This document shows positions 11,878-24,938 of a stretch of 40,009 bases of DNA, in pieces. Source of the stretch: a virus; IMG/VR virus record IMGVR_UViG_3300027782_000160, positions 1 to 40,009 of that record; one strand, written 5' to 3'. Under the pieces are notes generated by a model that was not told the DNA's origin, did no database searches, and saw only the letters and a program-made list of their open reading frames with translations. Positions within the stretch are counted from its first letter, which is position 1; every line of letters begins with the position of its first letter. The position numbers and the translations under genes are program-made.

Positions 11878-11976
11878 GATACACTCCCTGTGTTCGGGTT
11901 TTCAGTAAGGCTGGATAGTATGAACACCTTACACACCAGCTATTAGTAATTATAGCATCGTACTTGTATAAGTCAA
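11878..11976 (-). promoter_or_regulatory. Promoter and pseudoknot leader L1 (GTGTTC/GAACAC class)
   Basis: Promoter TTGACT (11976-11971), 16 bp, TATAAT (11954-11949). The hairpin GCTGG...CCAGC (11940-11936 with 11914-11910) begins at about +1. Loop GTGTTC (11927-11922) is complementary to GAACAC (11895-11890), which abuts AGGGAG. Confidence 0.8.
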
Positions 11977-12002
11977 GAACATTTAATACTTTCTTTCAAT
12001 AA

Positions 12003-12070
12003 AGTTACTCAAGTATACTTTGGAACGCTTATGCTTCCGAAGGAAGTCTTTAAAGTACACCTGAGTAACT
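12003..12070. repeat. AGTTACTC palindrome P1 (minus orientation)
   Basis: Arms AGTTACTCAAGTATACTTT and AAAGTACACCTGAGTAACT enclose an inner CTTCCGAAGGAAG hairpin. The two arm mismatches become G-U pairs only when the minus strand is transcribed. Confidence 0.8.
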
Positions 12071-12138
12071 TTGTCAATTGCAATTAAAAGATATGTTATG
12101 TCTTTTATATTTAATACCTTTTTAGTCTTTAATATGCT

Positions 12139-12168
12139 AAAAAAAAACCAAGGTGGTAAGCCTTGGTT
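12139..12168 (-). terminator. CCAAGG-type terminator, copy 2
   Basis: Read leftward: AACCAAGGCTTACCACCTTGG, then a T run. It follows the gene at 12184 by about 15 nt. Confidence 0.85.
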
Positions 12169-12183
12169 CCTTTTGTTGTTTTT

Positions 12184-12369
12184 TTACTTGGGTTGTTCGA
12201 TCCCCTTAATTTTCATCATCTCCAGGCACTTAGGACAACCAACCACCTTAACTCCTTCGAGCCTAGCATGGTTTGTTGCAAGGGTGCTGCCCCCGCACAA
12301 TAATCCATGTGGCCCCGAAAGATGGCATTTGTTGTCTATCACATTTCCCTTGTTACCATAGATCATCAT
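12184..12369 (-). CDS. Small four-cysteine zinc-ribbon-like protein
   Basis: 61 residues from ATG at 12369, chosen because GGGAG of leader L2 sits 7 nt upstream; an upstream ATG at 12429 would lie inside the leader stem. It contains C-H-L-S-G-P-H-G-L-L-C-G and, 25 residues later, C-P-K-C, a pattern suited to one structural zinc. Size and lone position between a leader and a terminator suggest a single-gene early unit. Function is unknown. Confidence 0.65.
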   Translation of the reverse strand: MMIYGNKGNVIDNKCHLSGPHGLLCGGSTLATNHARLEGVKVVGCPKCLEMMKIKGIEQPK

Positions 12370-12469
12370 AACTCGACTCCCTGTGTTCGGGTTTTTAGTA
12401 AAGCTGGATAGCATGAACACCTTACACACCAGCTATTGGTAATCATAGCACCTTACTTGTATAAGTCAA
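12370..12469 (-). promoter_or_regulatory. Promoter and pseudoknot leader L2 (GTGTTC/GAACAC class)
   Basis: TTGACT (12469-12464), 16 bp, TATGAT (12447-12442). Stem GCTGG/CCAGC. Loop GTGTTC (12420-12415) pairs with GAACAC (12388-12383) next to AGGGAG. Confidence 0.8.
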
Positions 12470-12495
12470 GAACATTTAATACTTTTTTCCAATAA

Positions 12496-12588
12496 AGTTA
12501 CTCAGGTGTACTTTGGAAAGCTTGCCCCTCCGAAGGAGGTCTTTAAAGTACGCTTGAGTAACTAATTTAAAAGTACACTTGAGTAACT
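12496..12588. repeat. AGTTACTC palindrome P2 plus extra half-site
   Basis: P2 is 12496-12563, with arms AGTTACTCAGGTGTACTTT and AAAGTACGCTTGAGTAACT and inner hairpin CCTCCGAAGGAGG. A further half-site AAAGTACACTTGAGTAACT follows at 12570-12588. It lies 27 bp upstream of the L2 -35 box. Confidence 0.85.
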
Positions 12589-12668
12589 TTGAAGATATGG
12601 AATGTCTTCTATATTAAATACATTGTATGTCTTTAATATTAAATACCTTATATGTCTTTAATAGGTAT

Positions 12669-12697
12669 AAAAAAAAACCAAGGTGGTTAGCCTTGGC
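12669..12697 (-). terminator. CCAAGG-type terminator, copy 3
   Basis: Read leftward: GCCAAGGCTAACCACCTTGG then a T run. It follows the gene at 12717. Between it and P2 lie AT-rich repeats related to the 25-mers at 15516. Confidence 0.85.
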
Positions 12698-12716
12698 TTG
12701 TTGAGATACTAAACTA

Positions 12717-13124
12717 TTAACCCCACCACACTCCACCACTTTCAACAAGCATATTTACTTGTTCTGGATTGGTTGCAATGTCGAACTTTCCAGCACTTAT
12801 CAAGAGTGCTTTTACTTCTTCCGCATTGGTTGCAATCCCGCTAAATTCCTCATGTCCAAATTTGGTTACCAATCCCCAACCAAATTTGCCCCAACCCTCC
12901 GAAAGAAAATTGTCTATCACCCCGAAAACAGGGTGATCGTTTAAAGCAGACCATCTTAAGTATTTTGGGTCTTTTATTTGATCTACGATCTGATTGGTAT
13001 CAGGGAACTTCACGATAAGTTCCTTTTTAAACAATTCCATTGCTTCCACACTACCCGCTGGAACACCAGCAAGTATTTCGATAATTTTGTTTTCTTTTGC
13101 CATTGGATAAAGTCTTGTTCCCAT
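12717..13124 (-). CDS. Hypothetical early protein
   Basis: 135 residues. ATG at 13124 is placed by GGGAG of leader L3, with 9 nt between. The protein has a short basic N-terminus, helical segments at about 10-50 (E-N-K-I-I-E-I-L-A, then V-E-A-M-E-L-F-K-K-E-L), a Trp/Gly-rich patch F-L-S-E-G-W-G-K-F-G-W-G, and a repeated A-T-N-(A/P)-E-(E/Q)-V motif near the C-terminus. No family was recognised. It is a single-gene unit with its own terminator. Confidence 0.65.
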   Translation of the reverse strand: MGTRLYPMAKENKIIEILAGVPAGSVEAMELFKKELIVKFPDTNQIVDQIKDPKYLRWSALNDHPVFGVIDNFLSEGWGKFGWGLVTKFGHEEFSGIATNAEEVKALLISAGKFDIATNPEQVNMLVESGGVWWG

Positions 13125-13227
13125 GATTCTAAACTCCCTGCGTTCTGGTTAGTTTGTAAAGCTGGTCAACTTGAACGCAATGTTGGCCAGCACAATTAAA
13201 CATATGGCATAATTAAAAAATTGTCAA
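13125..13227 (-). promoter_or_regulatory. Promoter and pseudoknot leader L3 (GCGTTC/GAACGC class)
   Basis: TTGACA (13227-13222), 17 bp, TATGTT (13204-13199). Stem GCTGGCCAAC/GTTGACCAGC has one C-A mismatch. Loop TGCGTTC (13179-13173) pairs perfectly with GAACGCA (13145-13139), directly before GGGAG. Confidence 0.85.
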
Positions 13228-13268
13228 GAACAAAGTAACAAATTTTATAAAAAGATTAATCTTTTATT

Positions 13269-13344
13269 ATTTGCGTTTTAACGCATTGTTTCACAAAGTT
13301 GATCTAAGACTCACTTAAGCAAACAAAGTCTTAAAAACGCAAAT
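13269..13344 (-). ncRNA. Possible branched RNA structure
   Basis: An 11-bp outer stem ATTTGCGTTTT/AAAACGCAAAT (13269-13279 with 13334-13344) encloses AAGACT...AGTCTT and TTTGT-GAA-ACAA hairpins when read leftward, giving a three-way-junction shape. It lies between the 30-codon gene at 13430 and the L3 promoter. Transcription of this stretch is not shown. Confidence 0.3.
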
Positions 13345-13349
13345 CTAGG

Positions 13350-13398
13350 TGGGCTATCTGGTAAAGCAAATAGCCCTTAGCTATACAACTAAGGGCTA
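13350..13398 (-). terminator. Two overlapping, mutually exclusive hairpins
   Basis: Read leftward, TAGCCCTTAG/CTAAGGGCTA form a 10-bp stem. The same GGGCTA can instead pair with a downstream TAGCCC (GGGCTATTTG...CAGATAGCCC). It follows the small gene at 13430 and is terminator- or attenuator-like, though the T run is poor. Confidence 0.45.
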
Positions 13399-13429
13399 TG
13401 ATGATAAGGGATAATGATAAGGGATAGGA

Positions 13430-13522
13430 TTAAAAAAGTATTCGATCCCCGAACAACTGGAAGATAATCCACATTTGGTAGTATTCCGAAAACAAGTAAC
13501 CATGTTCTAAAATAGCAAACAT
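13430..13522 (-). CDS. 30-residue early peptide
   Basis: The ATG at 13522 is followed by 30 codons rich in aromatic residues (M-F-A-I-L-E-H-G-Y-L-F-S-E-Y-Y-Q-M-W) and ends in TAA. It is called a gene only because a Shine-Dalgarno GGGAG sits 7 nt upstream in a leader resembling L1 and L2 (CTCGACTCCC when read on the plus strand). It may be a true micropeptide, a leader peptide for the alternative hairpins just downstream, or the start of a decayed gene. Confidence 0.45.
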   Translation of the reverse strand: MFAILEHGYLFSEYYQMWIIFQLFGDRILF

Positions 13523-13600
13523 AACTCGACTCCCTTGGTGTTTTCAAACAGGGTTAGCAACAGTAGCAACCCTTACACATTTAATATCGGCAACCAACCA
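13523..13600 (-). promoter_or_regulatory. Divergent leader L4
   Basis: A stem AGGGTT/AACCCT (13573-13568 with 13555-13550) precedes AAGGGAG. The loop is complementary to the pre-Shine-Dalgarno segment over only four bases (TGTT/AACA), so the pseudoknot is weak or lost. No good -35 box is visible. Confidence 0.4.
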
Positions 13601-13626
13601 AACAATATTAACTTTATTTTAAAAAT

Positions 13627-13694
13627 AGTTACTCAGGTGTACTTTAGAAAAGTTGTTCCTCCTTCGGAGGTTCTTAAAGTACGCTTGAGTAACT
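13627..13694. repeat. AGTTACTC palindrome P3
   Basis: Arms AGTTACTCAGGTGTACTTT and AAAGTACGCTTGAGTAACT with inner CCTCCTTCGGAGG. Plus orientation, just upstream of the L4 region. Confidence 0.8.
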
Positions 13695-13798
13695 ATTCAA
13701 AGTATATTAAGACTAAACTACTCTTTAATATATTTATACATAAATGTATTCTTATATTAATATATTGGTGGTATTAATATATTAAATGTTTATAGTAT

Positions 13799-13865
13799 AG
13801 TTACTCAAGCGTACTTTAGTACAATTTTTTTCGGTGAGGTTTTTTTAAAGTACACCTGAGTAACT
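13799..13865. repeat. AGTTACTC palindrome P4 (minus orientation)
   Basis: Arms AGTTACTCAAGCGTACTTT and AAAGTACACCTGAGTAACT. The arm differences form G-U pairs only on the minus strand. The gap between P3 and P4 is AT-rich with no gene. Confidence 0.8.
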
Positions 13866-13879
13866 AATTTTAATTTGCA

Positions 13880-13920
13880 TTGATGATATAGCATAGTGAT
13901 ATAGATTGATGATATAGATA
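13880..13920. repeat. GATGATAT/AGTGATAT repeats, short array
   Basis: Three alternating units of about 13 nt (TGATGATATAGCA, TAGTGATATAGAT). Longer arrays of the same units lie at 17952, 19144 and 26334. Confidence 0.75.
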
Positions 13921-13950
13921 TATTGATACTGTCTTTGTATGGTATAGGAC

Positions 13951-13991
13951 AAAAAGAAAAGGCAGGGATATTTCACCCTGCCTTGTCTTTT
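13951..13991 (-). terminator. Terminator after DUF932 gene
   Basis: Read leftward: GGCAGGGTGAAATATCCCTGCC then TTTTCTTTTT. It lies about 28 nt after the stop at 14011 and differs from the CCAAGG type. Confidence 0.85.
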
Positions 13992-14010
13992 GTTTTACCT
14001 AGCCTGAACT

Positions 14011-15198
14011 TTATGCAAAGATAAGATCCCTGCCGAGGATGCTTTCGCAATCCTTGACCTGAAGGGCATTGGCCTTGTTGCGAAGACCGATCCATTCATC
14101 ATGGCTGAACTGGCCAAGTTCCCCGCCAATCTCATTCATCTTGGTATTGGAAATCTCAGGAAGCCTTTGGGAACCCCTTGTAATGCTGTTCGCAATACCG
14201 AACAAGGTTCGAGCATACTGAGGGGTTTCGCTGCGTTCAATCCCCCAACCAGTATGCGTGGCTTCGATTTCGAGTTGCGTAAGCTTGTAAGCTTGTGCAA
14301 CTGAAGCGAACAAAGGGGTCATTGTGGAACCATCGTTTCCAAGCGTGAAATGCTTGGTTCTTTGGAATCCCTCGATCATGCGGGGCATTGCTGCCATGTG
14401 GTCTTGTATACCACTTTGAATAAGAGACTGAATGTGTCTCAAATCAATAGTGCCCCTATGCACCACATTCAACCCCGCTTGACCCCGCACCCCGATCATG
14501 CCATTAGTACACACCAACCTAAGAATACCCGCTTCCAGCGTTAGCCTATGGGTTCCGATTTCGCTGTTCGTGAACTTGATAAGTCCACCGTAGTTACTGT
14601 CATCCATGATAGCTTCGCTGGAGGGAATAAACACCGAAAAGCTAAGATAGTCTTCGGTACTCAAATCCGTTACAACATGGCTTTTAGCATCTTCTGGCAA
14701 ATAACGCTGGATCTGATCCAGCATCCAGGAATTATTGACAATAGCATATTTGTCGCTCAAAAGTGCCCTGCAAGAATTATCAGAATCATTCAATCTAAAA
14801 AGGAAGTTTTTGTTTTCCGCTTCAGATTCAAAATGAATCTTGATTAAATTTTGCAAACAAGCGTGATACTCAGGTGATTCTGAAGCTTCAAGCTTAAGAA
14901 TGGTAGAAATCCCGATTTTAAACTTTTGGCTTAACTGGCTGTAGGCATGGCGGGTAGGTCGATAATGAAGACCTTTTTCCCGATCCAAGAAAGTAAACTT
15001 CCCATTGATCGGGTGTACAGATGGAACAATCCTGGAATTAGTTGCATCAACCTTTGTGGTGATATCAGCGTAATTGCTCTTACGAGCGTTGTAAGCTTCA
15101 AGCACCGTTTCTAGGGGTTTTCCCTTAGTGTAGGCAGCAATCCTTCGTGCTGCATTGGTGTTGATGGTTGCGGGGGTGGTGGTGATTGCAGTACTCAT
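14011..15198 (-). CDS. DUF932 family protein
   Basis: 395 residues. Residues 145-156 read A-L-L-S-D-K-Y-A-I-V-N-N, the hallmark segment of DUF932 (phage/plasmid-like TIGR03299-type proteins), followed by an extended beta-rich region with a N-G-M-I-G motif. These proteins are common in plasmids and large phages; their role is unresolved, with links to DNA replication or defence islands. Codon use is more GC-rich than in neighbouring genes, suggesting separate acquisition. It forms a single-gene unit with its own promoter, leader L5 and terminator. The start is supported by AAGGG 9 nt upstream. Confidence 0.8.
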   Translation of the reverse strand: MSTAITTTPATINTNAARRIAAYTKGKPLETVLEAYNARKSNYADITTKVDATNSRIVPSVHPINGKFTFLDREKGLHYRPTRHAYSQLSQKFKIGISTILKLEASESPEYHACLQNLIKIHFESEAENKNFLFRLNDSDNSCRALLSDKYAIVNNSWMLDQIQRYLPEDAKSHVVTDLSTEDYLSFSVFIPSSEAIMDDSNYGGLIKFTNSEIGTHRLTLEAGILRLVCTNGMIGVRGQAGLNVVHRGTIDLRHIQSLIQSGIQDHMAAMPRMIEGFQRTKHFTLGNDGSTMTPLFASVAQAYKLTQLEIEATHTGWGIERSETPQYARTLFGIANSITRGSQRLPEISNTKMNEIGGELGQFSHDEWIGLRNKANALQVKDCESILGRDLIFA

Positions 15199-15322
15199 AT
15201 TCGTAATCCCTTGCTAGTTTTTTCCAGTAGTTTTAAAAGGTAAGTGGGTTCTGGAAAACTCACGCAAAAAATCAACACCACTTACCTAAATAAGTTTTAT
15301 CACACTTACATGAATAAGTCAA
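15199..15322 (-). promoter_or_regulatory. Promoter and pseudoknot leader L5 (TTTTCCAG/CTGGAAAA class)
   Basis: TTGACT (15322-15317), about 17 bp, then a TAAAAC-type -10. A perfect 10-bp stem AGGTAAGTGG/CCACTTACCT (15287-15278 with 15247-15238). Loop TTTTCCAG (15258-15251) is complementary to CTGGAAAA (15227-15220), 7 nt before AAGGG. No base is shared with the other classes, but the architecture is kept. Confidence 0.75.
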
Positions 15323-15420
15323 GCTTATTTATAGAAATAAAAAGAAGATTTTTTAAAAGTAATTTGCAAGCTTATATTATTTTTATTTGTCAAGAAAAAT
15401 ATTTAAAAAATTCCAAAATT

Positions 15421-15488
15421 AGTTACTCAGGTGTACTTTAAAAAACTTGTTCCTCTTGCCCCAGGTCTTAAAGTACGCTTGAGTAACT
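15421..15488. repeat. AGTTACTC palindrome P5
   Basis: Arms AGTTACTCAGGTGTACTTT and AAAGTACGCTTGAGTAACT. The loop CCTCTTGCCCCAGG differs from other copies. Located 99 bp upstream of the L5 -35 box. Confidence 0.85.
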
Positions 15489-15515
15489 ATGATCAAATAT
15501 AAATAAAAGATACTT

Positions 15516-15640
15516 TATGTCTTTTATATTAAATACATTGTATATCTTTTATATTAAATACATTGTATGTCTTTTATATTAAATACATTGTATGTCTTTT
15601 ATATTAAATACATTGTATGTCTTTTATATTAAATACCTTT
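15516..15640. repeat. Five tandem 25-nt repeats
   Basis: TATGTCTTTTATATTAAATA followed by CATTG, five times head to tail; the second unit has one change and the last ends differently (CCTTT). Single or partial units lie beside the palindromes at 12600, 16700 and 17895. Confidence 0.9.
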
Positions 15641-15658
15641 TTAGTCTTTTATTAATAC

Positions 15659-15721
15659 TTACTCAAGCGTACTTTAGGATGGTCTTTTAATAGGTTGGTC
15701 TTAAAGTACACTTGAGTAACT
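15659..15721. repeat. AGTTACTC palindrome P6 (minus orientation)
   Basis: Arms TTACTCAAGCGTACTTTA and TAAAGTACACTTGAGTAA. The single internal difference forms a G-U pair only on the minus strand. Confidence 0.75.
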
Positions 15722-15773
15722 ATGATCAAAAAAATTTTACTATATTAAATACCTTTTTAATCTTTAATAAGCA

Positions 15774-15812
15774 TAAAAAAAACCAAGGTGGTTAGCCTTG
15801 GCTTTTTTTTTA
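15774..15812 (-). terminator. CCAAGG-type terminator, copy 4
   Basis: Read leftward: A-run, GCCAAGGCTAACCACCTTGG, then a T run. It overlaps the A/T-rich end of the gene at 15817 by only a few bases. Confidence 0.85.
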
Positions 15813-15816
15813 ATTA

Positions 15817-16464
15817 TTATGATTGAGGGGTGTAAAATGTGTTCTTGATTTCTTCGTGTTTAGCCCAAAGAAGGGGCAAGTTATTTTGCACCCATGATAG
15901 AATATTATTAAGGTTTCTTTCCTTGGCTTCCCGCTTACTAGAAACATAATCGTTGTCTGAACTGTAACTTTCTGGTGTGCTTCTGGCATATCGTTCTGCC
16001 CTGCACTCACCTGAGTTCCAAGTTTCCGCTTCGTAACCATACCAGCGAAGTTTTTCTTCAATTTTTTGAAGAAAATTTAAGTTTACACCACCAGTCTTGT
16101 ATTTCGCTGCGAAAGCAGCAGCAGCACTTTCAAGTGCAATTCTTTCTTTTTCACTCTTTTCTTGCATATAAGCATTTTTTTCATATAATCTTGACCACCC
16201 TTCTCCATTGTCTGTACACTCATTGTAAGCATTTTGAAGCGAGGTAAAATCCTTTATATCAGCAAGGAACCCTTCAAGTGTCCAATCATCATGATGACTG
16301 CTAGGTGCAAACAATTTCAACAAATCTTCAATACTTACTGCCCTTGGCTCCCGATCACTTTTTTTACCAATACTAAAACCATCTTCATCTTGGGCAATCC
16401 AAGAATCGATTGCGACAAACTCCATTTTGGAAAACAAATTTTTGAAATTTTCGATAGCACTCAT
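15817..16464 (-). CDS. Hypothetical early protein with central coiled coil
   Basis: 215 residues. The N-terminus is amphipathic (I-E-N-F-K-N-L-F-S-K-M). A D-D-W-T-L-E-G-F-L region sits at about 58-66, a charged helical stretch rich in E, K and A spans about 95-120, and an R/E/Y-rich region leads to a helical C-terminus with W-V-Q-N-N-L-P-L-L-W. No family was recognised. ATG at 16464 follows the GGGAG of leader L6 at a normal distance. It is a single-gene unit with palindrome P7 upstream of the promoter and a CCAAGG terminator downstream. Confidence 0.65.
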   Translation of the reverse strand: MSAIENFKNLFSKMEFVAIDSWIAQDEDGFSIGKKSDREPRAVSIEDLLKLFAPSSHHDDWTLEGFLADIKDFTSLQNAYNECTDNGEGWSRLYEKNAYMQEKSEKERIALESAAAAFAAKYKTGGVNLNFLQKIEEKLRWYGYEAETWNSGECRAERYARSTPESYSSDNDYVSSKREAKERNLNNILSWVQNNLPLLWAKHEEIKNTFYTPQS

Positions 16465-16565
16465 CTTTCGATCTCCCTGCGTTCTTGTTATTAGTAAAGC
16501 TGGTCAACTTGAACGCAATGTTGGCCAGCTTATTTAACCATACATGATAATTTAAACTTTGTCAA
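16465..16565 (-). promoter_or_regulatory. Promoter and pseudoknot leader L6 (GCGTTC/GAACGC class)
   Basis: TTGACA (16565-16560), 17 bp, TATGGT-type -10. Stem GCTGGCCAAC/GTTGACCAGC. Loop TGCGTTC pairs with GAACGCA directly before GGGAG, as in L3. Confidence 0.8.
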
Positions 16566-16591
16566 ACTAATTTAATACTTTTTTCCAAAAT

Positions 16592-16683
16592 AGTTACTCA
16601 GGTGTACTTTAGAAAGCTTGCCCCTCCGAAGGAGGTCTTTAAAGTACGCTTGAGTAACTAATTTTAAAGTACGCTTGAGTAAT
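16592..16683. repeat. AGTTACTC palindrome P7 plus extra half-site
   Basis: P7 is 16592-16659, nearly identical to P2 (inner CCTCCGAAGGAGG). A further half-site AAAGTACGCTTGAGTAATT follows. It lies 27 bp upstream of the L6 -35 box. Confidence 0.85.
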
Positions 16684-16745
16684 TATGATTAAAAATATAC
16701 GCTATGTCTTTTATATTAAATACCTTTTTAGTCTTTAATAGGTAT

Positions 16746-16775
16746 AAAAAAAACCAAGGTGGTTAGCCTTGGTTT
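16746..16775 (-). terminator. CCAAGG-type terminator, copy 5
   Basis: Read leftward: AACCAAGGCTAACCACCTTGG then a T run, about 18 nt after the stop at 16794. Confidence 0.85.
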
Positions 16776-16793
16776 AGTTTGTGTTTAATTTTG

Positions 16794-17258
16794 TTAAACA
16801 CATTTAATTTGAACATTATCCTTCAACAAGTCTATTATTGGGAACTCTGCAATAGTGAAACTATTGCATTCATCATCATCATAGCTTATCTTGATCTTTT
16901 CCTGATCAATCTTAATGGTCAGGTTGTTTTTACCATCGATGTAACCATTGAAATATTCAATACTAACATTTGCAATACCTTCAATTCTTTTTGGGTCAAC
17001 TTGTTCTTCCGTTCTTACATTGAGCATACTTGGCTCTGCTGATATGGTAGGGAGTATGGTTACTGCCCTGTAGGTCTTCCAACCATCAGCTAGGTTTTGC
17101 TTGTTTTCTATGAAAATTTGTTCAATCATTTCAATTGTTTCCAACGACATATTGCTTTTTTCTTTAACCTTTGAACTAGCATCATCAAAATCTTTTGCAT
17201 TAATCACAATTGTCTCAGAGCCTTTTCTAAAATCAAAACGAACTTTAAACTTAGCCAT
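16794..17258 (-). CDS. Early protein, paralogue of the gene at 19359
   Basis: 154 residues. The N-terminal 65 residues align with the protein at 19359: M-x-x-F-K-x-x-F-x-F, a basic patch, V-x-x-x-A-K/N, L-E-x-I/V-F-x-x-N-K and then G-W-x-x-Y. The C-terminal halves differ. No known family was recognised. Start ATG is 7 nt from GGGAG of leader L7. The gene follows 17339 in the same direction but has its own promoter, whose -35 lies inside the end of that upstream gene. Confidence 0.65.
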   Translation of the reverse strand: MAKFKVRFDFRKGSETIVINAKDFDDASSKVKEKSNMSLETIEMIEQIFIENKQNLADGWKTYRAVTILPTISAEPSMLNVRTEEQVDPKRIEGIANVSIEYFNGYIDGKNNLTIKIDQEKIKISYDDDECNSFTIAEFPIIDLLKDNVQIKCV

Positions 17259-17355
17259 GATTCTAATCTCCCTGCGGTTTACTTGTGTAAGTGTAGGCTA
17301 GTTACCGCAACACTAGCCCACACAAATATCATATCACATTAAGAAACTTTGTCAA
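17259..17355 (-). promoter_or_regulatory. Promoter and pseudoknot leader L7 (GCGGT/ACCGC class, compensated stem)
   Basis: TTGACA (17355-17350), 16 bp, TATGAT (17333-17328). Stem GTGTGGGCTAGT/ACTAGCCTACAC carries a C-G pair where most copies have T-A. Loop TTGCGGT pairs with ACCGCA before GGGAG. The -35 box is inside the last codons of 17339-17659. Confidence 0.85.
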
Positions 17356-17659
17356 ACTTTAAAACATTAAACTTAGGAAATTTAATAATTGAACATGATG
17401 GTTCAATCTCTTCATGCTGGATGTCAAAAGGTTTCTTGTAATCGAAATTCCCATTGAACTCGATTGCAATCTTTTGTTTTTTCATCCAGAGAACTCTTAA
17501 CTCTTTCAAGTTCATACTTGTATAATTAAGATTCTTGTTATGAATGCTGTTGTACCCATACCCGACCACAACATCATTTTGGGTGATCTTAAGTTCCCAA
17601 AACAAATTAGAAACATTGCTATCAGCCTTAATCAAATCTAAAACTTCTTGAACTTTCAT
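17339..17659 (-). CDS. Hypothetical early protein ending in LDKVS-type tail
   Basis: 106 residues. It is compact and mixed alpha/beta, with no recognised motif (V-V-V-G-Y-G-Y-N-S, then L-R-V-L-W-M-K-K-Q-K). Its last codons, F-D-K-V-S-stop, are written by the -35 region (TTTGACAAAG) of the downstream promoter. The same happens at 22540. Start ATG follows GGGAG of leader L8. Confidence 0.6.
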   Translation of the reverse strand: MKVQEVLDLIKADSNVSNLFWELKITQNDVVVGYGYNSIHNKNLNYTSMNLKELRVLWMKKQKIAIEFNGNFDYKKPFDIQHEEIEPSCSIIKFPKFNVLKFDKVS

Positions 17660-17755
17660 CTTTCGATCTCCCTGCGGTTGACTTATGTAAGTGTGAGTTA
17701 GTTACCGCAAACCAACTCACATATGATTTAGAACATATTGTTTTAAACTTGTAAA
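17660..17755 (-). promoter_or_regulatory. Promoter and pseudoknot leader L8
   Basis: Weak promoter TTTACA (17755-17750), 17 bp, TCTAAA. Stem GTGAGTTGGTT/AACTAACTCAC with one G-U pair. Loop TGCGGT pairs with ACCGCA directly before GGGAG. Confidence 0.75.
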
Positions 17756-17781
17756 GACTAATTTATACTTTTTTCTGAAAT

Positions 17782-18564: not shown

Positions 18565-18670
18565 TTCAATACTCCCTGCGGTTTAACTAGAATTAAAAAG
18601 ATTAAATTGGAAACCACACACCAGTTCAATCTTATGTTATCATTCTAGCACAGTAATATTAAAATGTCAA
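18565..18670 (-). promoter_or_regulatory. Promoter and pseudoknot leader L9 (GTGGTTT/AAACCGC class)
   Basis: TTGACA (18670-18665), 17 bp, TAGAAT (18647-18642). An unrelated stem AAGATTGAACTGG/CCAATTTAATCTT. The loop GTGGTTT pairs with AAACCGC (one U-G) directly before AGGGAG. Stem sequence has changed completely while the loop-to-Shine-Dalgarno pairing is kept. Confidence 0.8.
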
Positions 18671-18823: not shown

Positions 18824-19129
18824 TTAATTAAGGAACACAAACACATAGCCAAATTTAATACTTCCCATTTGAAGGTCACCAGTCCAGTCCATTTTGGCAC
18901 ATAACTGTTTAGCTGCATTGGCATGGTTCTCAGATGCGTTCAATTCATAATCCCAAGACAGAATAACTGAATCCTTGGAATTTTCAAAATTACTTGAATA
19001 CGCTTTAACTCTTGCTCCCCTACTGTTTGTAGGTGAAAAGAATTTTGTTTGAATTGTAACCTTATTAGATTCAAAAACTTGAGTGGTTATTTCTGGCTTG
19101 GTTGGCAATTTTAATTCTTGATTGCTCAT
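18824..19129 (-). CDS. Conserved phage-type hypothetical protein
   Basis: 101 residues. The order T-K-F-x-x-P-T-N-S-R-G-A-R-V-K-A, then S-W-D-Y-x-L-N-x-x-E-N-H and A-A-K-x-L-C-x-K, then G-Y-V-F-V-F resembles a small uncharacterised protein often seen in phages and bacteria; the biochemical role is unknown. It lacks the pseudoknot leader. AAAGGAAA lies 7 nt before ATG and a GATGATAT repeat array lies directly upstream. The coding end is followed by gene-free sequence up to the L9 promoter. Confidence 0.7.
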   Translation of the reverse strand: MSNQELKLPTKPEITTQVFESNKVTIQTKFFSPTNSRGARVKAYSSNFENSKDSVILSWDYELNASENHANAAKQLCAKMDWTGDLQMGSIKFGYVFVFLN

Positions 19130-19143
19130 GTCTTATTTCCTTT

Positions 19144-19216
19144 GTGATGATATAGCATAGTGATATAGACTGATGATATAGCATAGTGATATAGACTGAT
19201 GATATAGCATAGTGAT
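19144..19216. repeat. GATGATAT/AGTGATAT repeat array upstream of 18824 gene
   Basis: Six units of 12-13 nt alternating GATGATATAGCAT and AGTGATATAGACT. It covers the region where a promoter for the 18824 gene would be expected. Confidence 0.85.
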
Positions 19217-19260
19217 AAGGGAGGGGGAACCAACAACAAGTCAATTCCCCTGAGTGATTC
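19217..19260 (-). repeat. 44-nt hairpin element, copy 1
   Basis: Read leftward, AGGGGAA...TTCCCCCT form the stem around loop TTGACTTGTTGTTGG. Identical to the copy at 19317 apart from the last base, and nearly identical to 23275. Confidence 0.85.
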
Positions 19261-19316
19261 AATGTTACATACTGTAGGCATTCAAAAACATTTACCTACA
19301 TTGTGTATCATGTTGT

Positions 19317-19360
19317 AAGGGAGGGGGAACCAACAACAAGTCAATTCCCCTGAGTGATTT
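19317..19360 (-). repeat. 44-nt hairpin element, copy 2
   Basis: Same 44-mer, starting at the stop codon of the gene at 19359. A TGTAGG/CCTACA hairpin lies between copies 1 and 2. Confidence 0.85.
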
Positions 19361-19880
19361 AAATCTGATGTTTAAGTAAGTCAATGGGTTCACCATTGAG
19401 AACATGAGCTAAAGCTAATACTTCAGTATTGTTTTTAATGCTGCTCCATTGTTCTTTAAACTCAGAAGCTAATGCTGCCTTTGTCATTTTATTATATTGG
19501 GTAAAGCCATCCCCTGTGAGAACCGCAAATATAAGATCATAATCTTTGAAGGATGCACATTCAATAATAGAAATGATGTCGTATGCTGCCAGCAAACAAA
19601 TCGTTTCACCTTTGGTTAATTTAGTATTCTTCTTCTTACCGCCTGACTCTCGGAAGAATTGAACTTCTTCAATATCAAGGCATTGGTAATTGTGCCAACC
19701 TTCATCAACACTAAATTTATTTTGTACGAAAACTTCTTCAAGGTGTTTGAAAAGTTTTTTACATTTTGCATTGTGTGGTTCTTCACCTATTTCTAAAGCT
19801 TCCTTTAAGTTTGCAGCATCAAACTTAACTACAAAGGTTTTTCTTTTTCCAAAACCAAATTCCATTTTAAACTCAGGCAT
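19359..19880 (-). CDS. Early protein, paralogue of the gene at 16794
   Basis: 173 residues. The N-terminal 65 residues match the 16794 protein (F-K-x-x-F-x-F, L-E-E-V-F-V-Q-N-K, G-W-H-N-Y). The C-terminal 100 residues are unrelated, with a hydrophobic A-A-Y-D-I-I-S-I-I-E segment. The pair probably shares a folded N-terminal domain with swapped C-termini. No known family was recognised. Leader L10 places ATG at 19880. The 44-nt hairpin element begins at its stop. Confidence 0.65.
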   Translation of the reverse strand: MPEFKMEFGFGKRKTFVVKFDAANLKEALEIGEEPHNAKCKKLFKHLEEVFVQNKFSVDEGWHNYQCLDIEEVQFFRESGGKKKNTKLTKGETICLLAAYDIISIIECASFKDYDLIFAVLTGDGFTQYNKMTKAALASEFKEQWSSIKNNTEVLALAHVLNGEPIDLLKHQI

Positions 19881-19976
19881 GATTCTAAACTCCCTGCGGT
19901 TGACATTAGTAAGTGTGAGTTAGTTACCGCAAACCAACCCACACAAGTATCATAACACATTAATAAACTTTGTCAA
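19881..19976 (-). promoter_or_regulatory. Promoter and pseudoknot leader L10
   Basis: TTGACA (19976-19971), 16 bp, TATGAT (19954-19949). Stem GTGTGGGTTGGTT/AACTAACTCACAC. Loop TGCGGT pairs with ACCGCA before GGGAG. The stop of the upstream gene at 19979 lies just before the -35 box. Confidence 0.85.
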
Positions 19977-20770: not shown

Positions 20771-20930
20771 TTTTAATCTCCTTAAGTATGTCTTCAATCT
20801 CAGAGTATTCTATTTCAACCTCATCATGATCTTCTTCTGGATATAAACACTCATTAAGCTCGTCATAGTTAGCCAAGCAATAACTGAGGGTGACCCTTAT
20901 AATTTCACGCTGTCTTTCAGTTAATTTCAT
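20763..20930 (-). CDS. Small acidic protein in early operon
   Basis: 55 residues. Begins M-K-L-T-E-R-Q-R-E-I-I-R-V, a basic helix, then an acidic tail (Y-P-E-E-D-H-D-E-V-E-I-E). Start ATG lies within the end of the 20917 gene and its stop overlaps the next start, so it sits between two coupled genes. Such charge-polarised mini proteins are typical of phage early regions. Function is unknown. Confidence 0.7.
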   Translation of the reverse strand: MKLTERQREIIRVTLSYCLANYDELNECLYPEEDHDEVEIEYSEIEDILKEIKND

Positions 20931-21330
20931 TGCTTAACTCCTTTTCTATTGGTGAAAAAAAAGGTTCCAGTTTCTTTAGTTCCAAACTAAATTCAAGTTT
21001 CATATTAAGCTTTTCAGCTACCCGCATTGCAAAATCGAATACACAATAGCAATTAGCTTTTGTGTTATTTCTTACTATAAATGTGTTAAAGCGAACACAA
21101 AGCTTATTGTTATAAATATGAATAAACACAGAACCGTTTTTTTCTTTATCTGTATGGATATACTTTAATCCCTTACCCAACCAAAGAACACCATCGTCAG
21201 TCAGGTGTGGCAAATCTCCTGACATATCTTTAATCGCATATTTGTTAGTTAGTTTATCAAGCCACAAACTGTGACCATTACCACCGTCTGCGAAACACAG
21301 TTCCCAATTGTACTGGTTATTATCTGTCAT
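20917..21330 (-). CDS. Hypothetical protein, first gene of five-gene operon
   Basis: 137 residues from ATG at 21330, set by GGGAG of leader L11; a longer frame starting at 21411 would run through the leader stem. Beta-rich N-terminal part (W-E-L-C-F-A-D-G-G-N-G-H-S-L-W-L-D) and a later C-Y-C-V-F-D-F-A-M-R-V-A-E-K-L helix. No family was recognised. The stop overlaps the next gene by 14 nt, and the operon continues through 20763, 20489, 20137 and 19979. Confidence 0.7.
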   Translation of the reverse strand: MTDNNQYNWELCFADGGNGHSLWLDKLTNKYAIKDMSGDLPHLTDDGVLWLGKGLKYIHTDKEKNGSVFIHIYNNKLCVRFNTFIVRNNTKANCYCVFDFAMRVAEKLNMKLEFSLELKKLEPFFSPIEKELSNEIN

Positions 21331-21427
21331 GATTCTAAACTCCCTGCGGTTGACTTGTGTAAGTGTGAGTTGATAACCGCTTAACCAACCCACACTAAGA
21401 TTATAACACAAAGAAAAACTTTGTCAA
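21331..21427 (-). promoter_or_regulatory. Promoter and pseudoknot leader L11
   Basis: TTGACA (21427-21422), 16 bp, TATAAT (21405-21400). Stem GTGTGGGTTGGTT with ATCAACTCACAC. Loop GCGGTT pairs with AACCGC before AGGGAG. The TGA of the upstream gene at 21424 lies inside the -35 box. Confidence 0.85.
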
Positions 21428-21675
21428 GCTTTTTTTACTTTTATTTCTTCTTTATTTATACTGTGTATTTTCAACACAGCTTCACCCTTCTTCCTTGGTA
21501 TAACTCTAATGATAAAGACTTCACCACTAGAATTAAACAAGTCTGCCATCTTGTTGGCTTTAGCTGTGCATTCATCAAGAGTGCCTGTCCATGATGGAGT
21601 TCGCAACCATCTGCCATCCATCCATCCATATTTGCTGTCTTTGACAACCTTGTGAGTCCATCGTCTGCGATCCAT
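21424..21675 (-). CDS. Small basic Trp-rich early protein
   Basis: 83 residues, very basic N-terminus (M-D-R-R-R-W-T-H-K-V-V-K) with W-M-D-G-R-W-L and a C-terminal strand-rich part (V-F-I-I-R-V-I-P-R-K-K). This could suit nucleic-acid binding, but no family was recognised. Stop TGA is part of the next promoter's -35 TTGACA. Leader L12 places the start. Confidence 0.65.
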   Translation of the reverse strand: MDRRRWTHKVVKDSKYGWMDGRWLRTPSWTGTLDECTAKANKMADLFNSSGEVFIIRVIPRKKGEAVLKIHSINKEEIKVKKA

Positions 21676-21751
21676 GATTCTAATCTCCCTGCGGTTTACT
21701 TGTGTAAGTGTGAGTTAGTTAACCGCATAACTAACCCACACAAGTATCATA
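21676..21751 (-). promoter_or_regulatory. Pseudoknot leader L12 with weak promoter
   Basis: TATGAT at 21751-21746, but the -35 region overlaps the end of the 21756 gene and matches poorly. Stem GTGTGGGTTAGTTA/TAACTAACTCACAC. Loop TGCGGTTAAC is complementary to GTAAACCGCA over the core GCGGTT/AACCGC. It may rely on transcripts from the L13 promoter. Confidence 0.75.
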
Positions 21752-21755
21752 CTAA

Positions 21756-21941
21756 TTAAACAATAAGGAAAGTTTTTCTTACTACAAGGCCTTTTGGAAT
21801 AGGCCAGCCAGCATTTTCCATTTTTTCTTTAAAAATTTCAACAGCTTCTTTTTTTGTAATCGCAACAACATACTTAGCTACTTCGTAGTTATTGTGATCT
21901 ACCCAATAGAACGCATATCTGTACCGTGATTTTTTGGCCAT
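21756..21941 (-). CDS. Small early protein, second gene of a pair
   Basis: 61 residues (M-A-K-K-S-R-Y-R-Y-A-F-Y-W then E-V-A-K-Y-V-V-A-I-T-K-K-E-A). The A-I-T-K-K-E-A-V-E-I-F pattern resembles small phage proteins that fold as a short beta hairpin plus helix. Start has GGGAG 9 nt upstream, inside the end of the previous gene, which stops 3 nt before this ATG. No known function. Confidence 0.65.
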   Translation of the reverse strand: MAKKSRYRYAFYWVDHNNYEVAKYVVAITKKEAVEIFKEKMENAGWPIPKGLVVRKTFLIV

Positions 21942-21944: not shown

Positions 21945-22145
21945 TCATTCTCCCTTATTTTTCTTCTGTATTTTTTCCAAGTCTTTTACGATTTCTTTGG
22001 CTACAGAAAGTGCATCTTTTAAGTTTGCAATTAAATCGTCTTGTGTTTCACAAGTTCCAGCACAATCCAGATGCTGTGTGATTTCTTCAGAAGAGGTTTT
22101 GATCTCTTGGACATCATTCAACAATTTTTCAAATTTATCATCCAT
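21945..22145 (-). CDS. Small helical protein, first gene of a pair
   Basis: 66 residues, predicted mostly helical and coiled-coil-like (F-E-K-L-L-N-D-V-Q-E-I-K, then L-I-A-N-L-K-D-A-L and E-I-V-K-D-L-E-K-I-Q-K). A C-A-G-T-C pair in the middle could form a disulphide or bind metal. Leader L13 places ATG at 22145. The start of the next gene lies 3 nt after its stop. Confidence 0.65.
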   Translation of the reverse strand: MDDKFEKLLNDVQEIKTSSEEITQHLDCAGTCETQDDLIANLKDALSVAKEIVKDLEKIQKKNKGE

Positions 22146-22243
22146 CTTACTAATCTCCCTGCGGTTGACTTGTGTAAGTGTGAGTTAGTTAACCGCATAA
22201 CTAACCCACATAAATATCATAACACACTAAGAGACTTTGTCAA
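22146..22243 (-). promoter_or_regulatory. Promoter and pseudoknot leader L13
   Basis: TTGACA (22243-22238), 16 bp, TATGAT (22221-22216). Stem TGTGGGTTAGTTA/TAACTAACTCACA. Loop TGCGGTTAAC faces GTCAACCGCA directly before GGGAG. Confidence 0.88.
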
Positions 22244-22260: not shown

Positions 22261-22458
22261 TTATTCTACTTCAGATGGTGGATTATACATTTCTTTAAGA
22301 GTTGGTAATTCCATTAGTTTGGCTATTGACTCAAGTGACTCAGCCATCGCAATGAACCCTTCTTTATTAGGTTCCCATATTCCATACTCACCTTCTCTGC
22401 AACTGTTAAACAAACATTGCAACTGATACCTAATTTTTTCTTTAGTCTTCTTATCCAT
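22261..22458 (-). CDS. Small early protein
   Basis: 65 residues, helical (T-K-E-K-I-R-Y-Q-L-Q-C-L-F-N, then I-A-M-A-E-S-L-E-S-I-A-K-L-M). No family was recognised. ATG at 22458 is placed by leader L14. The single-gene unit ends 18 nt before the L13 -35 box, so the two units are packed head to tail. Confidence 0.65.
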   Translation of the reverse strand: MDKKTKEKIRYQLQCLFNSCREGEYGIWEPNKEGFIAMAESLESIAKLMELPTLKEMYNPPSEVE

Positions 22459-22556
22459 GATTCTAATCTCCCTGCGGTTGACTTGTGTAAGTGTGAGTTA
22501 GTTAACCGCATAACTAACCCACACAAGTATCATAACACATTAAGAGACTTTGTCAA
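22459..22556 (-). promoter_or_regulatory. Promoter and pseudoknot leader L14
   Basis: TTGACA (22556-22551), 16 bp, TATGAT. Stem GTGTGGGTTAGTTA/TAACTAACTCACAC. Loop TGCGGTT pairs with AACCGCA before GGGAG. The -35 box lies in the L-D-K-V-S codons of the gene at 22540. Confidence 0.88.
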
Positions 22557-22887
22557 GACTTTTTTCTAAACTAATAACATTATTTGGAACTATAGGATAG
22601 CAACCACTTCCCAGTTGTGAATCAAGCACATCGATGAACCCATCGTGTGTGACACGATATACTGTTTGGTAGTCTGAGAATGCAACAAACCGAACAGGCC
22701 TATCTGTAAAGGCTTTTTGGATTCGTGCTACAACTGCGTTGTAATCTTTTGGCTTGTATATGTCTTTGATACTAAAACAAGCTGGCTTCCACCAGTATTT
22801 TAATTCGTAAACAAGTTCTTGTTTACCCTCAATATTCATTTCGGCTTTTTTGGTCTTTCCAGCTAATCTGTACATATAAGAACCCAT
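22540..22887 (-). CDS. Hypothetical early protein ending in SLDKVS
   Basis: 115 residues. Begins M-G-S-Y-M-Y-R-L-A-G-K-T-K-K-A and contains W-W-K-P-A and R-F-V-A-F-S-D-Y, a mixed alpha/beta pattern. No family was recognised. The terminal L-D-K-V-S-stop is encoded by the -35 and spacer of the L14 promoter, so promoter and protein tail are co-selected. ATG is placed by L15. Confidence 0.65.
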   Translation of the reverse strand: MGSYMYRLAGKTKKAEMNIEGKQELVYELKYWWKPACFSIKDIYKPKDYNAVVARIQKAFTDRPVRFVAFSDYQTVYRVTHDGFIDVLDSQLGSGCYPIVPNNVISLEKSLDKVS

Positions 22888-22984
22888 AATACTAATCTCC
22901 CTGCGGTTGACTTATGTAAGTGTGAGTTGATAACCGCATATCTAACTCACACTATTATCATAACACAACAATAAACTTTGTCAA
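22888..22984 (-). promoter_or_regulatory. Promoter and pseudoknot leader L15
   Basis: TTGACA (22984-22979), 16 bp, TATGAT (22962-22957). Stem GTGAGTTAGAT with ATCAACTCACAC. Loop TGCGGTT pairs with AACCGCA before GGGAG. Confidence 0.85.
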
Positions 22985-23018
22985 GACTTTTTAAATAAAA
23001 TTTTAAATATATATCTGA

Positions 23019-23258
23019 TTAAATTATTTGGATTTCTAAATCTGCGTTTTTCATTGTGTAAAATTTATCATGAGCTAAATTAATATCTTTAAACAATACT
23101 TTAACCTTAGTCCAAGTGTCTAAATATATAGAATTAAAACCATCTTTCTCAACATCGTGAATCTGATACCAATCACCATATCTATTAGTAAAATAACAAC
23201 AGTTGCTTATGATTTTTTCCAGCCTTTTATTGCTAACTTTACGCTTTTTCATTTTCAT
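23019..23258 (-). CDS. Small early protein without pseudoknot leader
   Basis: 79 residues from ATG at 23258 (AAAGGAT just upstream; a second in-frame ATG at 23252 has better spacing). A frame running further upstream would translate the 44-nt hairpin element and is rejected. Basic N-terminus (K-M-K-K-R-K-V-S-N-K-R), then a W-Y-Q-I-H-D-V-E-K-D-G strand segment. Unknown. Probably cotranscribed with 23321 across the hairpin element. Confidence 0.6.
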   Translation of the reverse strand: MKMKKRKVSNKRLEKIISNCCYFTNRYGDWYQIHDVEKDGFNSIYLDTWTKVKVLFKDINLAHDKFYTMKNADLEIQII

Positions 23259-23274
23259 TATCCTTTTATAAAAT

Positions 23275-23318
23275 AAGGGAGGGGGAACCAACAACAAGTC
23301 AATTCCCCTGAGTGATTC
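23275..23318 (-). repeat. 44-nt hairpin element, copy 3
   Basis: Read leftward it begins 2 nt after the stop of the 23321 gene and ends about 16 nt before the next ATG. Same AGGGGAA/TTCCCCCT stem as copies 1 and 2. Confidence 0.85.
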
Positions 23319-23320
23319 AT

Positions 23321-23650
23321 TTATACATCTATGTAAATTAAAGGAAACTTAGTTCCATCTAATTTGTATCCGTTTTTTTCAAGGAACTCTCTCACTTCTT
23401 TCCTTGCTCCATTCCTTCTTTCCTTATCTTCCTCATTCAAAGCATAACTTTGAAAATCCCAATCAACTATGACTGTGCCACTATATCCAAGTCTGGACAC
23501 AGTAAGACCTTGTTTCAGAGAAGAAAAACCTGTGTAACTACTCTTCATTATGAATCCTGCTGCCTTAAGCTTTCGGCTTATGGTTCTTGCTAAGACAGCA
23601 GCAGCATCACATCGTGTGTCTAACTCTGAATTAGTAAATACCTTTTTCAT
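23321..23650 (-). CDS. Hypothetical early protein
   Basis: 109 residues. N-terminal helix with R-C-D-A-A-A-V-L-A-R-T-I-S-R-K-L-K-A-A-G, then strand-rich sequence with V-I-V-D-W-D-F and a basic E-R-R-N-G-A-R-K-E-V-R helix. The layout resembles small phage proteins of unknown role. ATG is placed by L16. Its 3' end carries the 44-nt hairpin element. Confidence 0.65.
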   Translation of the reverse strand: MKKVFTNSELDTRCDAAAVLARTISRKLKAAGFIMKSSYTGFSSLKQGLTVSRLGYSGTVIVDWDFQSYALNEEDKERRNGARKEVREFLEKNGYKLDGTKFPLIYIDV

Positions 23651-23743
23651 CTCATTCTCCCTGCGGTTGACTTAGATAAGTGTGGGTTAGTTACCGCAAA
23701 CCAACCCACATTAAGATTATAACACATTAAGTAAATTTGTCAA
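23651..23743 (-). promoter_or_regulatory. Promoter and pseudoknot leader L16
   Basis: TTGACA (23743-23738), 16 bp, TATAAT (23721-23716). Stem TGTGGGTTGGTT/AACTAACCCACA, in which C replaces T opposite the middle G and removes the usual G-U. Loop TGCGGT pairs with ACCGCA before GGGAG. Confidence 0.85.
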
Positions 23744-23797
23744 ACTAATTTTTACTAATTTATAAATAAAAATATCGTTAATCTTTGATTTCAATCA

Positions 23798-23968
23798 TTA
23801 GATTTCATCCTCAAGAGTGCTTAATCTTTCATAAAGTTTTTCCAATTCTTTTTTGTACGGAGGGTCTATACCTTTGTTGCCAAGAACACTAAGTTCATAG
23901 CTTAAGCTATTAGCTATCATGGATATTTCATCTTGTGTTAGCTGTACATTTATAGTTGGATCATTCAT
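23798..23968 (-). CDS. Small coiled-coil early protein
   Basis: 56 residues. ATG at 23968 is chosen over an upstream ATG that hits TGA after four codons. Helical (L-T-Q-D-E-I-S-M-I-A-N-S-L), then a P-P-Y-K-K-E-L-E-K-L-Y-E-R-L-S coiled-coil end. No family was recognised. Between it and L16 lies a short AT-rich stretch. Confidence 0.6.
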   Translation of the reverse strand: MNDPTINVQLTQDEISMIANSLSYELSVLGNKGIDPPYKKELEKLYERLSTLEDEI

Positions 23969-24065
23969 CTTTCATTCTCCCTGCGGTTGACTTAGATAAG
24001 TGTGGGTTAGTTAACCGCATAACCAACCCACATTAAGATTATAACATACTATGTAAAATTGTCAA
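23969..24065 (-). promoter_or_regulatory. Promoter and pseudoknot leader L17
   Basis: TTGACA (24065-24060), 16 bp, TATAAT (24043-24038). Stem TGTGGGTTGGTTA/TAACTAACCCACA. Loop TGCGGTT pairs with AACCGCA before GGGAG. The TGA of the 24062 gene is part of the -35 box. Confidence 0.87.
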
Positions 24066-24841
24066 TCTCTTTTAACAATTTTTTCTAATGTTTTATTTAA
24101 CTCTGCAACATCAACCTTATTGGCTTTGAACTCATGTTCTTCATCATCTTCAATTCCATCTAAAAAGTAACTGGTTGCTTCAAGCAATATCTTCAGTTGG
24201 TGAACTGAAAAGGTGAACTCCACCTTGATTTTCTTTTCGTAATCATTTACTTTAGGTGGCTCTGGTGCTTCTACCACTTGTGGTTCTGGAAACAACTCTT
24301 TGTACATTTTAAAATTATCTACATCAGTAGCTATCGCAGCTTCACCTAATGGAAAAGGTGCGTGTAAAATATCTTTTGCATAGTGATAAGAGTGGTATGG
24401 ATCAGTAGCTATTATCTTTTCGCCTAATTCAAAAGGTGCTTTTAAAACCCATTTTGCATAACGATAAGAATTATCTACACTAGTAGCAATCAAAGCTTCG
24501 CCTTCGGGGAAAGGTGCTTTCAAAACATAGTTTGCATAAGCAAAAGCTTCATAAGGTGTTTTCAATGTGTTTGCATCGCTTGTCACAATGAAATGTCTTT
24601 TGTAAATTACAGGTTTTTGGCATTTAGGACAAATCCCTTCATTGTTATCATCACAAGTGTTATCATCATCACAAGTGTTTTGACCTACTGTCATACCTTT
24701 AGTTATATAGTTGAATTTTTTTTCTCCGTAATCTTCCGAAGGAATAGCAATAAGTTTCGTGGCGGGGCAACCTTCGGTCTTACAACCTTCAGTTACTTCC
24801 TCAACGACAAATCCTCTTCTTGGATATTTAACATTAATCAT
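24062..24841 (-). CDS. Protein with N-terminal Cys motifs and three YA-APFP-GE-IAT repeats
   Basis: 259 residues. N-terminal C-K-T-E-G-C and a later C-P-K-C suggest a zinc-binding region. Residues about 95-190 hold three repeats of about 30 residues with the pattern Y-A-x-x-(V/I)-L-x-A-P-F-x-x-G-E-x-x-I-A-T. Similar repeats occur in proteins of large phages and form helical hairpins. The C-terminal 60 residues are charged and helical. The role is unknown; a scaffold or protein-binding function is plausible. The stop codon lies inside the next promoter. Confidence 0.7.
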   Translation of the reverse strand: MINVKYPRRGFVVEEVTEGCKTEGCPATKLIAIPSEDYGEKKFNYITKGMTVGQNTCDDDNTCDDNNEGICPKCQKPVIYKRHFIVTSDANTLKTPYEAFAYANYVLKAPFPEGEALIATSVDNSYRYAKWVLKAPFELGEKIIATDPYHSYHYAKDILHAPFPLGEAAIATDVDNFKMYKELFPEPQVVEAPEPPKVNDYEKKIKVEFTFSVHQLKILLEATSYFLDGIEDDEEHEFKANKVDVAELNKTLEKIVKRD

Positions 24842-24938
24842 CTTTTATTCTCCCTGCGGTTTACTTGTGTAAGTGTGAGTTAGTTAACCGCATAACCAAC
24901 CCACACCAATAATATAACACAACAATAAACTTTGTCAA
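24842..24938 (-). promoter_or_regulatory. Promoter and pseudoknot leader L18
   Basis: TTGACA (24938-24933), 16 bp, TATATT (24916-24911). Stem GTGTGGGTTGGTTA/TAACTAACTCACAC. Loop TGCGGTT pairs with AAACCGCA before GGGAG. Palindrome P9 lies 27 bp upstream of the -35 box. Confidence 0.87.

Follow-up and report, generated by a model that had tools for sequence, protein, structure and literature searches.

Pseudoknot leaders set against the Shine-Dalgarno sequence of unrelated small genes in a phage genome fragment

The DNA analysed here, IMG/VR virus record IMGVR_UViG_3300027782_000160 (G000, hereafter the window), is a linear record of 40,009 bp and a single fragment from which most of the genome is missing. 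Its minus strand carries, between 11.9 and 24.9 kb, 16 leaders with an H-type pseudoknot, each ahead of a gene or a run of genes, and a divergent seventeenth. The usual order of modules is a sigma70-like promoter, an inverted repeat forming stem 1, loop 3, the partner strand of stem 2, the Shine-Dalgarno (SD) sequence GGGAG, and the start codon. Leaders are labelled L1 to L17, and stems and loops of the fold are written out; positions are those of the window.

24850..24906, minus strand: L17, pseudoknot and GGGAG (first G 24854); stem 1 of 13 bp, stem 2 TGCGGT/ACCGCA, loop 3 of 12 nt; gene 24062-24841
23977..24032, minus strand: L16, pseudoknot and GGGAG (first G 23981); gene 23798-23968
23657..23710, minus strand: L15, pseudoknot and GGGAG (first G 23661); gene 23321-23650
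22897..22952, minus strand: L14, pseudoknot and GGGAG (first G 22901); stem 1 of 9 bp, stem 2 TGCGGTT/AACCGCA; gene 22540-22887
22468..22524, minus strand: L13, pseudoknot and GGGAG (first G 22472); gene 22261-22458
22155..22210, minus strand: L12, pseudoknot and GGGAG (first G 22159); genes 21945-22145 and 21756-21941
21685..21741, minus strand: L11, pseudoknot and GGGAG (first G 21689); weak -35; gene 21424-21675
21340..21396, minus strand: L10, pseudoknot and GGGAG (first G 21344); heads a run of gene 20917-21330 and genes downstream of it
19890..19944, minus strand: L9b, pseudoknot and GGGAG (first G 19894); gene 19359-19880
18572..18633, minus strand: L9, pseudoknot and GGGAG (first G 18576); a different stem 1 (13 bp, one mismatch), stem 2 TGTGGTTT/AAACCGCA; DUF6011 gene 18121-18564
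17668..17721, minus strand: L8, pseudoknot and GGGAG (first G 17672); weak promoter; gene 17339-17659
17268..17323, minus strand: L7, pseudoknot and GGGAG (first G 17272); double change T-A to C-G in stem 1; gene 16794-17258
16473..16530, minus strand: L6, pseudoknot and GGGAG (first G 16477); stem 2 TGCGTTC/GAACGCA; gene 15817-16464
~15200-15290, minus strand: L5, divergent pseudoknot leader; stem 1 of 10 bp, stem 2 TTTTCCAG/CTGGAAAA; DUF932-like gene 14011-15198
13134..13191, minus strand: L3, pseudoknot and GGGAG (first G 13138); same hairpin as L6; gene 12717-13124
12377..12434, minus strand: L2, pseudoknot and GGGAG (first G 12381); stem 2 GTGTTC/GAACAC, stem 1 of 6 bp; gene 12184-12369
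11884..11940, minus strand: L1, pseudoknot and GGGAG (first G 11888); stem 2 GTGTTC/GAACAC, stem 1 of 5 bp; gene 11407-11877

Over the 16 leaders, stem 1 measures 5-13 bp and stem 2 6-8 bp, with 0-8 nt in loop 1, 0-7 nt in loop 2, and 10-15 nt in loop 3. Stem 2, which joins the hairpin loop to the bases upstream of the SD, ends 0-1 nt before the invariant GGGAG in 16 of 16 leaders; the SD is outside stem 2 in all of them, and its distance to the start codon is always 6-9 nt. Stem 1 begins 3-8 nt past the -10 hexamer in 11 of the 13 leaders with a scored -10, and the transcript probably starts at about its first base pairs. The genes may be early ones, judged by the sigma70-like promoters. Seventeen or more leaders, each with a promoter, had been described in an earlier note on this DNA. 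Sixteen SD-abutting knots bear out most of that count; L5, the seventeenth, has a knot with an unrelated 8-bp stem 2, the partner of which lies several nucleotides upstream of the SD AAGGGA and does not abut it, and the usual promoter is weak at two leaders (first G at 17672 and 21689). An eighteenth candidate at 13534 (region 13524-13580) was rejected, having no SD-adjacent pseudoknot and no clear promoter; this region has the GGGAGTCGAGTTATG SD-spacer in common with L2 and a 7-bp hairpin, and is perhaps a decayed leader copy.

Covariation was judged by counting cells in an alignment of 16 rows (A2), with column slides and shuffles as controls. Stem 2 is paired in 97.1% of cells, and three of its pairs, in 10 cells, are altered on both sides. 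Sliding the partner by 1-3 columns leaves only 30-48% of cells paired and 0-2 changed on both sides, and no shuffle matches the stem 2 covariation score. Both stems together have ten pairs altered on both sides versus a shuffled mean of 5.5, and the T-A to C-G change that the earlier note had seen in the closing stem of L7 is present in stem 1. For 14 leaders the joint score of the two stems is reached by none of 300 dinucleotide shuffles per leader; the weaker L2 and L1 are matched by 1 and 5 of 300, respectively. A pseudoknot filter on SD-preceded starts passes 14 of 60 in the window versus 7 of 1436 in unrelated loci.

Loops and partners form five classes, each loop with its own partner: the main class with GCGGT(T), L3 and L6 with GCGTTC, L1 and L2 with GTGTTC, L9 with GTGGTTT, and L5 with TTTTCCAG. 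The own assignment of loop to partner ranks first among 120 permutations, with main and L9 tails almost interchangeable. The main class holds 11 leaders that are close relatives of one another, and the hairpins of L3 and L6 are identical over 31 nt, so that independent covariation amounts to about five classes, not seventeen. Within that limit, the proposal that the loop and its SD-adjacent partner change together holds. The covarying pseudoknot leader family in this phage is real.

The family is one of RNA elements placed before different genes. Read on the mRNA strand, stem 1 of the main class has 14 G-U versus 5 A-C cells, with four of the A-C cells sitting at the outermost, fraying pair, and this excess points to selection on RNA and not on a DNA palindrome. 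The partner of stem 2 at the SD is a separate, non-palindromic site, and the stems are wholly different between classes. The downstream proteins are unrelated except for the pair behind L7 and L9b (27% identity, 70 aa), and L10 and L12 lead short gene runs whose later genes lack leaders of their own; the leader is therefore a shared regulatory part and not a by-product of gene duplication. Structure is retained with differing loop and stem sequences, which is what recognition by shape would predict. Little unpaired sequence is conserved beyond CAGGGAG and a TTAC at the onset of loop 3, which is missing from L9 and L15-L16.

Like the earlier note, which did not recognise the family, we found no match to it in Rfam or in phage, plasmid, GTDB, or IMG/VR collections. 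Rfam, including the preQ1 and SAM riboswitches, gave nothing at gathering scores and only weak, unrelated hits below them at E values up to 5. Pattern scans of IMG/VR (three loop/SD-partner pairs; loop 3 with the SD region; the main stem 1 and loop) returned chance matches or none, and a single GTGTTC match, in L199, was set aside as resembling a repressor operator. The 32 hits of a pattern scan in GTDB all lacked the leader architecture, and megablast and blastn, at the sensitivities used, found no nucleotide relatives of the window in phage or plasmid collections. A covariance model (R1), the check that the earlier note had suggested, recovered the same 16 leaders in the window and nothing convincing in seven phage records, DUF6011-bearing IMG/VR loci (80 loci sharing the gene), or 18 whole contigs; its match in MW202483 (E 9e-5) was rejected, with no start codon following in the leader arrangement. 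Among the collections searched, an SD-abutting pseudoknot leader family has so far been found only in this phage.

Contigs that share the DUF6011 gene (~50% identity) carry repeated elements of their own. L111 has, at 2586-10111, 13 copies of CTTATAACTTCGT..ACGATAAG..AAGTGTA upstream of small genes; seven of the 13 are followed by a leader hairpin, in which GTAAGG/CCTTAC changes to GTAGGG/CCCTAC, and then by an SD, with no knot seen. L113 has, at 2194-19455, 16 copies of AAACTGCTTCGG-N8/9-GAAGCAAAGCCGATA ahead of genes whose leaders mostly have weak structure; this motif is probably a phage promoter class, because one copy immediately precedes a tRNA gene at 5464. Repeated upstream elements may thus be common in such phages. 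The PeSL cassettes of T4-like phages such as RB49 are likewise repeated between genes, with an early sigma70-type promoter before many small genes, and the title of a 2014 paper cited in PMC4503421 terms them promoter-terminator motifs. A promoter with a stem-loop also recurs in the window, the stem-loop lying on the downstream side of the promoter, and both arrangements embody a mobile promoter module. The scanned parts of RB49, however, show the pseudoknot at 0 of 179 SD-preceded starts and, as read from the sequence, early-type promoters there mostly stand before short leaders lacking the fold.

These observations suggest a shared RNA device that controls translation of the whole gene block, probably by boosting it. 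The reading to which we incline, tentatively, is a pseudoknot enhancer of translation that docks the ribosome through ribosomal protein S1 (bS1) and also protects the 5' end of the mRNA. Each leader would be a cis-acting translation-initiation element. Stem 1 would fold during emergence of the RNA, from its first base pairs at about the start of transcription, and its loop would then pair with the 6-8 bases before the SD; the resulting compact H-type pseudoknot would occupy the whole 5' untranslated region (UTR) and leave GGGAG outside, immediately after it. The main role of this knot would be to dock the host 30S subunit via bS1 and thereby capture ribosomes beside the SD of many small genes simultaneously, and the paired 5' end would also slow 5'-end-dependent (RppH-dependent) mRNA decay. 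The SD is never in stem 2, the gap between them is 0-1 nt in every leader, and the spacing from SD to start stays within 6-9 nt, all of which an element positioned for the ribosome would predict. Control of translation or mRNA stability, as the earlier note had proposed, would fit this leader anatomy.

Pseudoknots are high-affinity targets of bS1 (PMC10931766), and systematic evolution of ligands by exponential enrichment with this protein picks H-type pseudoknots (PMC7708055, PMC10931766). A 5' hairpin hinders RppH and stabilises bla mRNA in E. coli (PMC3997798). We regard tisB of E. coli, which the earlier note had not considered, as the closest functional precedent: its 5' H-type pseudoknot is needed for bS1 and the 30S subunit to bind, and binding is lost and restored through stem 2 mutations (PMC7708055). 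The tisB +42 mRNA resembles the leaders in having a 5' H-type pseudoknot, with a loop that pairs with a flanking single strand, and the leaders likewise place theirs near the mRNA 5' end, judged by sequence and covariation. The published tisB model has 9 bp in stem 1, 5 bp in stem 2, and loops of 0, 2, and 3 nt (PMC7708055), versus 5-13 bp, 6-8 bp, and 0-8 and 0-7 nt for loops 1 and 2 here. However, tisB is one toxin gene with a standby site ~100 nt upstream of a sequestered ribosome binding site, whereas the leaders serve at least 16 unrelated phage genes, set the knot against the SD, have a loop 3 of 10-15 nt, and probably start at a promoter and not by processing.

Several points weigh against a bS1-docking enhancer. 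The SD is only partly unpaired in free folds (mean 0.46), and with the knot strands locked the mean is 0.56, with no consistent direction; since locking the knot shifts the SD so little and so inconsistently, a two-state switch between open and closed SD is unsupported. Some free folds cover the SD with an alternative CC/GG hairpin, which is not common to all classes. Stem 1 is weak in L1 (5 bp) and L2 (6 bp). A constitutive enhancer needs no such close copies, which recent duplication could explain, and in the collections searched we found no homologous leader family by which to gauge conservation between phages. The phage host may or may not have a canonical S1. The triplet ACA is reported in bS1-selected pseudoknot loops and as a translation enhancer motif near the SD (PMC3879156); it occurs within loop 3 of 10 of 16 leaders, in copies that are not independent, and as a link to bS1 it is suggestive only.

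It is also possible, with less probability, that the leader is a switchable translational operator, in which a phage protein binds or stabilises the knot, blocks or traps ribosomes, and shuts the gene block off at a set time. The knot abuts the SD in all 16 leaders, the right spot to block or trap a 30S subunit, and a single leader family across many genes would form an RNA regulon. Pseudoknot operators are known for gp32 (PMC3014915) and for uS4 and uS15 (PMC10931766). The rpsO operator (uS15) is, like the leaders, a 5' UTR pseudoknot at the initiation site, and is involved in ribosome docking; in E. coli it serves one ribosomal gene and holds the SD and start codon in the pseudoknot loop (PMC10931766), whereas in the phage leaders both lie outside and a gene block is served. 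Gene 32 of T4, which the earlier note had invoked, and of T2 and RB69 is a fair comparison as a phage H-type pseudoknot within a 5' leader, but a distant one, being a single gene with no repeated family and with its binding region 67 nt ahead of the start codon (PMC3014915). There, gp32 nucleates over the ribosome binding site on an AU-rich stretch (PMC3014915); here, stem 2 ends 0-1 nt before the SD in place of a distant knot followed by such a stretch, and no single-stranded DNA-binding protein family was found among the downstream proteins scanned. What weakens the operator is that the five classes conserve little unpaired sequence for a specific binder, and that the window proteins scanned included no recognisable candidate regulator, in a record from which most of the genome is missing. 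We consider it doubtful that one trans factor, a phage protein or a modified host ribosome, acts through the SD-abutting knot to switch at least 16 unrelated mRNAs on or off together as a phage-wide RNA regulon.

Response to a ligand, another suggestion of the earlier note, is weakened because the SD lies outside the knot, the leaders head unrelated genes, and the five classes keep too few unpaired nucleotides in common for an evident ligand pocket. PreQ1-I riboswitches are also small H-type pseudoknots beside an SD, but they occlude it wholly or partly and conserve their aptamer bases (PMC11625349), whereas the leaders leave the SD outside and have no Rfam match and no aptamer core; a ligand riboswitch was rejected as best reading on these grounds.

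An unlikely explanation is that the leaders are mainly caps for mRNA stability, with the 5'-terminal hairpin and knot shielding the 5' end or leader from decay of the RppH/RNase E type, and SD adjacency mere geometry. The onset of stem 1 at about +1 would suit such a cap, as would the stabilising effect of a 5' hairpin in E. coli (PMC3997798) and the seven repeated leaders of the phage contig L111, which have a hairpin near the probable start and no pseudoknot seen. A plain hairpin would be enough for this purpose, however, which leaves stem 2 and its constant 0-1 nt gap to the SD to be explained in some other way. It is very unlikely that the leaders present GGAG to a RegB-like endonuclease of early mRNA, which would inactivate the messages after the early phase. 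GGGAG is invariant, and L17 (GGAGAATAAAA) matches the RegB consensus GGAGRAYARAA (PMC3014915), with others nearly so; yet GGAG doubles as a normal SD, most leaders deviate from the consensus, secondary structure inhibits RegB, and no RegB-like protein was found among the window proteins scanned. Least credible is a DNA operator, with a repressor on the stem 1 palindrome and an incidental RNA fold: a palindrome just past a promoter is the classical operator position, but stem 2 covaries with a site at the SD that is not a palindrome, stem 1 prefers G-U to A-C, and the stems differ completely between classes.

Pseudoknots near the SD were already known on single genes; here one phage repeats a single architecture before at least 16 genes that are unrelated. 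Its several matched loop/partner sequences amount to a natural experiment, suggesting that pairing matters and the exact letters largely do not. If, as in the bS1-docking enhancer, the knot recruits ribosomes, the leader would be a 5' UTR part open to reuse and would let a phage favour its own messages by simple means; should it be a switch instead, the gene block would be a translational regulon. The loop-swap variants already in the phage make either idea easy to test.

Recognisable proteins in the window are few and generic (GNAT, methyltransferase, glycosyltransferase 64, ankyrin, pentapeptide, DUF932-like, and DUF6011), and none of 10 large proteins encoded outside the leader block matched PHROGs. 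The DUF6011 protein ties the window loosely to large phages of Alphaproteobacteria (Caulobacter, Agrobacterium, Brevundimonas, and Rhizobium) and also to uncultured phages of 634-642 kb. Several otherwise different proteins (open reading frames 9413-10393, 10440-11039, 29550-30527, 32970-33530, and 36151-36714) begin with MNFKxWL, a common N-terminal tag that might serve packaging or processing.

The window is also rich in repeats. Long imperfect inverted repeats of the form GTTACTCAGGTGTACTTT...AAAGTACGCTTGAGTAAC lie at 11977-12072, 12470-12565, 13601-13696, 15395-15490, 16566-16661, 17756-17851, and 24942-25139, several directly upstream of leader promoters and with extra half-copies besides; terminators or protein-binding sites are possible roles. 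AAGGGAGGGGGAACCAACAACAAGTCAATTCCCCTGAGTGATT occurs in three near-identical copies (19215-19270, 19315-19370, and 23273-23328) and is possibly an intergenic hairpin. Iteron-like arrays of 12-13 bp units (TGATGATATAGC/ATAGTGATATAG type) are found at 13853-13927, 17953-18066, 19143-19217, and 26350-26565, and a 25-bp tandem repeat, TTAAATACATTGTATGTCTTTTATA, spans 15504-15653, with related single copies in other intergenic spots.

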